Shown: one piece after another, positions 3,176 through 5,484 of the stretch | How the letters are laid out: each line of letters opens with the position of its first letter | How positions within the stretch are numbered: position 1 is the first letter of the stretch | DNA from: Gottschalkiaceae bacterium SANA | GTDB lineage: Bacteria; Bacillota; Clostridia; Tissierellales; GPF-1 | Direction: 5' to 3' | Length of the DNA stretch: 64,000 nt | Assembly (NCBI GenBank): GCA_036323355.1 | Contig: AP028876.1 | Span: forward strand, 2,604,001 to 2,668,000 | Program-made: the position numbers and the translations under genes | Notes under the pieces: generated by a model | Databases searched by the model: none | Told to the model about the DNA's origin: nothing | The model's input: only the letters and a program-made list of their open reading frames with translations

Positions 3176-4486
3176 CTATTTGTCAATTTCATTGATCCAC
3201 TCACCCTCCAAGGTGAGAAGGTCCTTCCCATAGACTTGTTGCAAGGCTTCTTTTAGTCCCATGGTTCCATTTATTTGATACAAATCAATAGCCTTGTCCA
3301 TTCCATCATGTTCAATCAAATATTGAAAAAAGGACCGAAGCTCTCTTCTTACCATTTCAGAATCGAATGACCTGTTGATCAACGGTCCCGTCAGATCAGT
3401 CAAAGGCAAATAATTCTCCCTATCGATAAAAACCTCACTCTCCTCTTTTTCTGCAACCAATGCAAAACTCAATCCATCACGCGTCATCTGATCCAATGAG
3501 ATGCCCAATTCTCCCAAAAAGATCTTAGCAATCTTTTCTTTATACTTTAAATCCTCTTGCCCCTGCTTATGAACCTCGTAACTCAGACCAGATAAAAAAT
3601 CATCATCACGTCCAACATAATGCTCCATAACCTCTTCTGTCATATAAATGTCGATATCAATTCGATGATCCGGTTCAAAACCAAGTTGATCTGCAATTTT
3701 TTCATAAATTATCTCTCGCTCTTGAAGAATATCTCTTATGTTTTCTTTTGTTTGCTGATCTACAGGACTATAGCGAATAACAAAATGTTTACTGTCGGCA
3801 GATTCGAATTCTCCAATCGTCTCCCTTGCCTCCAATTGTAAAATCGTCCACCCGCTTGAGGCTTTTGAAAACCTACCGCTATATCTCGTTCGTTCATCCG
3901 CCTTGATTAAGTAGTCGTCTATTTTCAGGTTCATGGTCATAAAACGAAGATGGGAAAAATAATCGGATTTACTTGCACCAATCACCCATAAGTATTTGCT
4001 TTGATTCAAAGGATTCGGAATCAAATACGTAAAAGTTGTCGTTTCCTCTCCGATTGTCCATCCAGCATCAGGAATTTCCACTTTGTTGTCAATTACCTGA
4101 ATGGGCAGTTTGTCATTGATCTGTGCAAATAAACTGTTGGTTTCTGGATTACCCAACAAGATGATATGCTTGTCCTCAAGATCGGCTTCTGTTACATTCA
4201 CATCCGATTCAATTATCAGTTGCCCCTCTTCTTGAAAATTCAAGATCGAATCCAAATACTCCGCATAATTCTTCAACCGGGTCGTATCAGTCTCACTACC
4301 CTGGCTGCCATAGACAATCAGATATTGATCGCCTTCATAAGCGCTCATCATAAAATCATCAAAGCCTGTCATATCGGGATCGATAGTTATTTCAGCTCCT
4401 TTTGGTGATTGCTCACACCCAGATGAAAAAACAGTAATCAAAGAAAACATCATCAATAAAAGGACCCAATTTTTCTTCTTAAGCAT
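3176..4486 (-). CDS. Lipoprotein of unknown function, peptidase-MA-like C-terminal part
   Basis: A lipoprotein signal (SLITVFSSGC) follows the ATG at 4486, which has a GGGGG-type RBS; a TTG at 4528 would extend it unnecessarily. The mature part is about 410 residues. The first half is acidic and contains an NPLNQSKYLWVIG-type nucleotide-like fold segment. The second half (HFVIRYSP..., then long helices with DIYMTEEV) resembles the layout of extracellular gluzincin-like domains, but no HExxH motif is visible, so enzymatic activity is doubtful. It is a monocistronic unit between two terminators. I do not recognise the family with certainty. Confidence 0.75.
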   Translation of the reverse strand: MLKKKNWVLLLMMFSLITVFSSGCEQSPKGAEITIDPDMTGFDDFMMSAYEGDQYLIVYGSQGSETDTTRLKNYAEYLDSILNFQEEGQLIIESDVNVTEADLEDKHIILLGNPETNSLFAQINDKLPIQVIDNKVEIPDAGWTIGEETTTFTYLIPNPLNQSKYLWVIGASKSDYFSHLRFMTMNLKIDDYLIKADERTRYSGRFSKASSGWTILQLEARETIGEFESADSKHFVIRYSPVDQQTKENIRDILQEREIIYEKIADQLGFEPDHRIDIDIYMTEEVMEHYVGRDDDFLSGLSYEVHKQGQEDLKYKEKIAKIFLGELGISLDQMTRDGLSFALVAEKEESEVFIDRENYLPLTDLTGPLINRSFDSEMVRRELRSFFQYLIEHDGMDKAIDLYQINGTMGLKEALQQVYGKDLLTLEGEWINEIDK

Positions 4487-4623
4487 TTTTACCCCCTTAT
4501 TTTCATCTTCCACCACTTTGGATTTCAAATATTTTCCACATTAATCATACTCGTATTATTCCTCTTTTTCAAATAAATAAACAGTAAATGTATATATGAT
4601 AAACTTATTTACAGTTCGTACAT

Positions 4624-4654
4624 AAAAAAAGAGAATCGCTAATCAGCGATTCTC
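4624..4654 (-). terminator. Terminator of the methionine sulfoxide reductase gene
   Basis: A 10-bp perfect stem (GAGAATCGCT / AGCGATTCTC) overlaps the TAG stop at 4639 and is followed on the minus strand by seven T residues. Confidence 0.85.
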
Positions 4655-5136
4655 TCTTTCCACATGGCATGACCCATGATCTCTCTTACAATTCGTTCCA
4701 ATCCAGCCTGGTCTTCCAAGGAAAACCGTGCCAAAATCGGACTGTCCACATCTAAAACACCGTAATATTTTCCATCTTTCATTAAGGGTATGACAATCTC
4801 CGATTGACTGGAAAAGTCTCAAGGAATATGTCCTGGAAAATTCAGAACATCCTCCACCAATTGCACCTTGCGTTCGGCAAAGGCTACACCACATACGCCG
4901 TTTCCGGAACGAATTCTGGTGGTTGCACTTTTCCCATGGAAGGGACCCAAAACCATTTCGTCACCATTCCACAAGTAGAATCCCAACCAATTTACATCGG
5001 TTAGTCCCCAATAAAGTACAGCCGCAATATTCGACAAATTCGCGATGCAATCCGATTCTTTTTCCAACAATGCTTGAATCTCTCGCTCCATTTCAGGATA
5101 GGGACGAGAACTTGTCAAGTTCGTCTCTAATACCAT
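4639..5136 (-). CDS. msrC: Free methionine-(R)-sulfoxide reductase, probable selenoprotein (TGA-encoded residue 106)
   Basis: This GAF-domain enzyme reduces free L-methionine-R-sulfoxide. The N-terminal 105 residues carry the family signature (LTDVNWLGFYL, LVLGPF-like, SGNGVCG). Reading then meets TGA at 4819-4821 and continues in the same frame for 59 codons with the correct family C-terminus (SEIVIPL, GVLDVDSP, FSLEDQAGLE) to a TAG at 4639. The TGA sits exactly where E. coli YebR/MsrC has catalytic Cys118 (HIACD; here HIP-TGA-DF). A SECIS-like hairpin starts just downstream. The total of 165 residues matches the family. Cys82 (GVCG) is kept, while the position matching E. coli Cys84 is Thr. 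Conventional calling would cut the protein at residue 105. A nonsense mutation is the alternative, but the exact Cys position plus hairpin favour selenocysteine. Confidence 0.85.
4792..4808 (-). promoter_or_regulatory. Bacterial SECIS-like hairpin
   Basis: On the minus strand CAATC-GGA-GATTG forms a 5-bp stem with a 3-nt apical loop beginning with G, extended by a U-U mismatch and a further G-C pair. The loop begins 17 nt after the TGA, within the spacing reported for bacterial SECIS elements, and G in the first loop positions is the SelB-binding hallmark. Confidence 0.65.
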
Positions 5137-5484
5137 ATTGCCTCCTATTACACTTTATTTTTGTTTCTATTCTACTGCATTCAATGATCCCATTCAACTA
5201 GAATTAATGAAACAGCTTGGATTTTTTTCGTTTTCTACACCAACTAGCCCTATAAAATCACGATCCGCAACAGCGATATACGGTTTGCAATATCCCCTTT
5301 AAATTTACAAATACAAGGAACATAATATATGTGCTTCTATATACTTTATTTAGGGTGTTCTATTTACACAGCAAAGAAACAGCTAGTCATAATCTGGTCT
5401 ACTTTTTCTTTATTTCCAATCTGCAATTTTCCAATAAAAAAATCCGCAAACCTTGTATGCTCAGGCTTACGGATTTATATATTC
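5137..5484. other. Intergenic region with one terminator
   Basis: No gene is supported here. A strong terminator for the minus-strand stalk-domain gene lies at 5434-5476. It has a 13-bp stem with G-U pairs and a T run on the minus strand. The rest is AT-rich and should hold the promoter of the reductase gene. Confidence 0.7.

Follow-up and report, generated by a model that had tools for sequence, protein, structure and literature searches.

A gene for free methionine-R-sulfoxide reductase (fRMsr, MsrC) in Gottschalkiaceae bacterium SANA very probably encodes a genuine selenocysteine (Sec) form of this known enzyme, with UGA codon 106 decoded as Sec under the direction of a hairpin located shortly downstream. 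The sequence features of the gene are those of a bacterial selenoprotein; from them we infer selenium in the protein, its enzyme activity and its recycling route. Sec insertion appears to be the most secure part of this reading, and the recycling route the least secure one.

In-frame TGA at the catalytic codon of fRMsr

The open reading frame occupies positions 4639-5136 of the window (the whole analysed stretch of 64,000 nucleotides). These coordinates had been given correctly in the preliminary description, which left the strand unstated: it is the minus strand, on which the gene reads from 5136 to 4639. It is preceded by a Shine-Dalgarno sequence, AGGAGG (5141-5146, minus strand), recognized by eye 4 nt upstream of the ATG and kept across the genus. 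When TGA is translated as U, a fRMsr/MsrC-like frame of 165 residues ending in TAG is obtained; its only U, at codon 106 (4821-4819), falls within the motif FPGHIP-U-DFSSQSEIVIPL. The earlier statement that only one TGA (4819-4821) interrupts the frame thus holds, and coding frame is conserved on either side of it. Upstream and downstream genes are arranged in the order Rnf genes, NUDIX hydrolase, secreted protein, fRMsr, lipoprotein, ABC transporter, and the order is the same in the congeneric genome G002. The adjoining predicted lipoprotein (about 450 aa, 3176-4528 of the window, minus strand) has the same placement there.

The 165-residue protein exceeds the cut-off of the Pfam GAF domain (PF01590) by 35 bits. 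The solved structures most similar to it are GAF proteins of the fRMsr type: 5hl6 (E=3.6e-44), 8dgd, E. coli YebR 1vhm (E=3e-41), 3ksf, 3ksg, 3mmh, yeast 1f5m and Thermoplasma 4mmn. Since both the Pfam hit and the full-length structure matches are of this kind, a single GAF domain of fRMsr type spans the whole protein, and identity to ordinary fRMsr amounts to 45-54% over almost full length. Judged by these matches, the GAF/fRMsr fold is certain. By predicted fold, pocket and catalytic position the protein belongs to the fRMsr family. Each genome of the genus carries one copy, the gene being the sole fRMsr gene of the source genome, so that there is no Cys form as backup.

In the fRMsr family, Cys118 is the catalytic and Cys84 the resolving residue, as established by studies of E. 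coli, Neisseria and yeast enzymes (E. coli numbering). In a pairwise alignment with E. coli MsrC, the segment GHIP-U-D is matched to GHIACD, which places U106 at Cys118, Cys82 at Cys94 and Thr72 at Cys84; PDB chains give the same alignment. The TGA (4819-4821, minus strand) is therefore predicted to encode Sec where other family members have the catalytic Cys, as first proposed, and the protein has a redox-active residue there provided that TGA is read as Sec. In all 85 aligned homologues outside the genus this residue is Cys, and it is never Trp.

Comparison of relatives at this codon, suggested in the preliminary description, separates the genus from its surroundings: homologues outside it have Cys (85/85), congeners TGA (3/3). 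The genus sample consists of the source genome and two others, representing three species, and the family sample includes no other genus. The two congeners appear to be the metagenome-assembled genomes named Clostridiales bacterium GPF-1 and Eubacteriales bacterium CSMAG_119, since the same proteins are encoded at the loci of these two. A phylogenetic tree unites the three Sec genes in a single clade (support 100/99), whose stem branch is long (0.89). TGA is one base from TGC or TGT, and a sequencing or assembly error in place of one of these Cys codons was considered accordingly. Its probability is negligible: the source genome is a single contig of 3.49 Mb, and the same TGA occurs in three separate assemblies of three species, which excludes such an error.

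A scan of genome contigs confined TGA forms of fRMsr to the two congeners, and no other fRMsr with TGA at the catalytic codon was found among matching genomes of the order (138), class (101) and phylum (92). The Sec form is thus so far confined to one genus and three species. Two further TGAs in fRMsr genes were rejected as Sec codons. The one in G324 (C132:154104-154553) corresponds to a Trp codon in G195 and G255 of the same genus and the catalytic Cys is intact; it may be a sequencing error, a mark of a pseudogene or a TGA read as Trp. The one in G534 is the normal stop of the gene. Six matches of viral contigs to the DNA pattern FPGHI-x-TGA-D/N were all due to chance, none being fRMsr, and a protein search of viral contigs found nothing.

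Cys-type fRMsr genes are present in fragmentary, unannotated records of Listeria, Staphylococcus and Enterococcus phages (INPHARED OR850396, OR844993, OR847391, OR846633 and others), possibly as host DNA rather than phage genes. A fRMsr-like protein is also found in 674 plasmid records, 575 of them from Klebsiella; the match covers at least 80% of the query in only 64.

Translation and selection beyond the TGA

With almost any standard gene finder the frame would be closed at 4819, and a product of 105 aa is listed as an open reading frame. This would be the expected picture if translation really stopped at TGA106 and only a relic followed, that is, if the gene were a pseudogene or had undergone early truncation. 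Such a product would lack the catalytic residue. The same TGA is moreover found in three species, and the intact frame beyond it is under purifying selection: for the segment after the TGA, interspecies comparison yields dN of 0.014-0.051 and dS of 0.12-0.30 (dN/dS about 0.12-0.19). Codons 124-165, which lie outside the RNA-constrained stretch described below, give dN of 0.020-0.074 and dS of 0.17-0.45. We judge from this pattern that the part 3' of the TGA is translated.

A further argument against truncation comes from the distal end of the gene. A hairpin of intrinsic-terminator type (4622-4662, minus strand; -22.6 kcal/mol, z=-5.9) starts in the final codons, includes the TAG stop and has a T-rich 3' side. 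Both congeners have it as well (z=-6.3 and -6.4), so transcription seems to end there and not at the TGA. Together with the frozen synonymous sites around the TGA (see below), these observations make a pseudogene or an early truncation highly unlikely.

Any kind of read-through would yield the full-length protein, also one in which general suppression or a changed code inserts another amino acid, such as Trp. Of the 39 genes that are clear in the window, however, 10 (about a quarter) have TGA as their stop, which argues that it is not generally reassigned, and TGG is used 180 times. Trp is also never found at this position, Cys being the residue in every homologue, and a full Sec system together with a selD-like hairpin is present. 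Decoding as an amino acid other than Sec is thus extremely unlikely.

Selenocysteine machinery and the putative SECIS hairpin

The reading of the TGA as Sec had been made dependent on the presence of Sec machinery, and this is encoded by a cluster in the same genome. Genes selD, selA and selB are consecutive at 1375534-1379837 of the source genome (G000:C1), and tRNA-Sec with anticodon UCA is located at 1382077, about 2 kb downstream of selB. SelA, SelB, SelD and tRNA-Sec are thus all present, as is required of a genome with bacterial selenoproteins. In all three genomes, selD carries its own in-frame TGA at the usual Sec position (TASSG-U-GAK). Two strong tandem hairpins, with loops at 17 and 33 nt, follow this TGA and are kept in the genus.

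GrdB (glycine reductase) and formate dehydrogenase are common clostridial selenoprotein families. In the three genomes of the genus no match was found to formate dehydrogenase (TIGR01591), nor to GrdB in a search run without positive control. SelD is therefore the only other selenoprotein located here, as far as a GrdB search of this kind allows.

A short hairpin with a G-led loop 17 nt after the TGA had been noticed in the preliminary description, and it is indeed there. The predicted SECIS apical hairpin CAAUC(GGA)GAUUG (4794-4806, minus strand) has its stem starting 12 nt and its GGA loop 17 nt after the TGA. Its geometry is that of the selD hairpins of the genus, AGGACC(AGA)GGUCCU and, in G002, AGGACC(GGA)GGUCCU, whose loop likewise starts at a distance of 17 nt. 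The two strands of the window together contain 2858 TGAs; two of them are followed by five Watson-Crick pairs with a three-base loop at 17 nt, and if the loop has to end in GA besides, just the fRMsr TGA is left. This rule was derived from selD, not from the fRMsr gene. Related hairpins accompany ten TGAs of the window, among which the fRMsr TGA alone has a long open frame on both sides.

The hairpin is embedded in codons 101-123 (4768-4836, minus strand), a stretch of 69 nt that is identical in three species and extends from 15 nt before the TGA to 51 nt after it. Here 21 consecutive degenerate codons are without synonymous change, a run reached in 0.175% of shuffles (p=0.00175), whereas 37 of 73 degenerate codons before residue 96 differ between species. 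This suggests an overlapping constraint at the RNA level.

Folding energy is not in favour of the hairpin. Compared with shuffled sequences, its fold is not better (z from -0.6 to +0.15 when more flanking sequence is included), and another hairpin is what the region forms at minimum energy. A loosely defined bacterial SECIS hairpin follows 18% of window TGAs when 5 bp are required and 68% when 4 bp are required; a generic hairpin of this type was consequently rejected as sole evidence. A larger enclosing stem (UUUUCCA/UGGAAAA), which would end close to where the conserved stretch does, was also discarded, having no energy support. A search of the region against Rfam returned no SECIS family, as is expected for a bacterial SECIS, and the identity of the hairpin in three species leaves no covarying base pairs to compare. 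Of the idea that a bSECIS element is recognizable here, the fit of the hairpin, its match to selD geometry and the frozen synonymous sites stand, but the generic fold is not significant. The element thus qualifies as a putative SECIS by selD geometry and by conservation of synonymous sites, and is weak as a free-energy prediction.

Taken together with the tRNA and protein components, UGA106 would be decoded as Sec by SelB and tRNA-Sec (UCA) with SelA and the Sec-containing SelD, the hairpin with its GGA loop 17 nt after the UGA directing the insertion.

Cysteine rearrangement and comparison with known enzymes

Besides the Sec codon, two changes of Cys positions are peculiar to the three Sec species and shared by all of them. 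Codon 72 (4921-4923, minus strand), at the position of the resolving Cys84 of E. coli, encodes Thr, while outside the genus Cys is found in 84 of 85 homologues and Ser in one. Codon 30 (5047-5049, minus strand) encodes Cys, a residue absent from all 83 homologues scored outside the genus, 60 of which have Trp. Cys82 (4891-4893, minus strand) in the GVCG motif, 24 residues before Sec, is retained and corresponds to E. coli Cys94; it is Cys in 85/85 homologues. Presence of Thr at the Cys84 position and retention of the GVCG Cys had already been pointed out, and the Thr now proves to be a lineage-specific change; the gain of Cys30 had been missed. A resolving Cys84 is usual in bacteria but not strictly family-defining, the Thermoplasma enzyme being functional with no such disulfide (PMC6211008); loss of Cys84 in 3/3 species departs from the bacterial fRMsr mechanism.

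These changes, together with the long stem branch, could also indicate that the Sec-containing GAF protein is no longer a fRMsr and now serves in redox sensing or as an enzyme linked to peroxide or selenium. We regard such a change of role as unlikely. Trp50, Glu113, Asp129 and Asp131 align with E. coli Trp62, Glu125, Asp141 and Asp143, which we take from published structures to be the residues of the substrate pocket, and all of them are kept. The extent of identity to ordinary fRMsr and the position of the gene as the only one of its family in the genome are also at odds with another function.

As a Sec form of fRMsr, the enzyme would use the selenolate at position 106 in place of Cys118 to attack the sulfoxide of free Met-R-O, with release of Met and formation of a selenenic acid. 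Because Cys84 is replaced by Thr, another thiol most likely resolves the selenenic acid: Cys82, which is retained, Cys30, which is peculiar to this lineage, or, as in the enzyme of Thermoplasma, an external thiol or redoxin. We expect catalysis at Sec106 and resolution by one of Cys82, Cys30 or an external thiol, with no choice among them. A rewired recycling step, in which Cys84 was lost and a selenenylsulfide forms via the new Cys30 (or Cys82), or an external thiol acts alone, is conceivable, with chances a little short of even. If so, a single co-evolved change would comprise the gains of Sec and Cys30 and the loss of Cys84.

MsrA and MsrB both have known Sec forms. If fRMsr has one too, the three thiol-based Msr folds, unrelated to each other, would all have taken up selenium independently, and Sec would occur in a GAF-domain enzyme. 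The changed resolving Cys offers a natural experiment on the effect of Sec on the recycling step, comparable to work on MsrB1. For automatic annotation, fRMsr genes truncated at TGA deserve re-examination. A review of prokaryotic selenoproteins from May 2026 counts 119 families and subfamilies, with MsrA as the only Msr and with no fRMsr or GAF-domain entry in the inventory (PMC13188914), to which the present family would be an addition. Sec-containing fRMsr is likewise unmentioned in a 2022 review (PMC9312934), in deep-Sep from 2025 (PMC12013277) and in a 2016 survey (PMC5029168). Targeted searches of the open literature gave no report either, which does not prove that such a form has never been observed; nor did this literature or the 2026 inventory contain a characterised fRMsr selenoprotein, in line with what the preliminary description had supposed. 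We conclude that Sec-containing fRMsr is probably a previously unlisted selenoprotein family.

Among characterized proteins, the SANA protein resembles E. coli MsrC/YebR (1vhm) in its GAF domain, full-length alignment, GVCG Cys, pocket residues and GHIxC/U-D catalytic motif, and differs from it by Sec for Cys118, Thr for Cys84 and the additional Cys30. In fRMsr of Thermoplasma acidophilum (Ta0848; 4mmn, 4mn7), Cys60 and Cys84 are 24 residues apart, the same spacing as between Cys82 and Sec106. Both Thermoplasma residues are required; they do not join in a disulfide, and resolution of the nucleophile by an external thiol was proposed (PMC6211008). Ta0848 is however archaeal, has Cys at the catalytic position and is a weaker match (E=8e-14).

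Selenoprotein MsrA of Clostridium sp. OhILAs (Alkaliphilus oremlandii) and similar bacteria is also a clostridial Msr with the catalytic Cys replaced by Sec, and selenenic-acid chemistry is expected in both. In contrast, its fold is unrelated and its stereochemistry opposite, since MsrA reduces Met-S-O, also in proteins. MsrA of the source genome itself is a Cys form. Mammalian MsrB1 (SelR) shares with the SANA protein the use of Sec in a Met-R-O reductase, but it has an unrelated fold, acts on protein-bound Met-R-O and depends on a eukaryotic SECIS in the 3' UTR.
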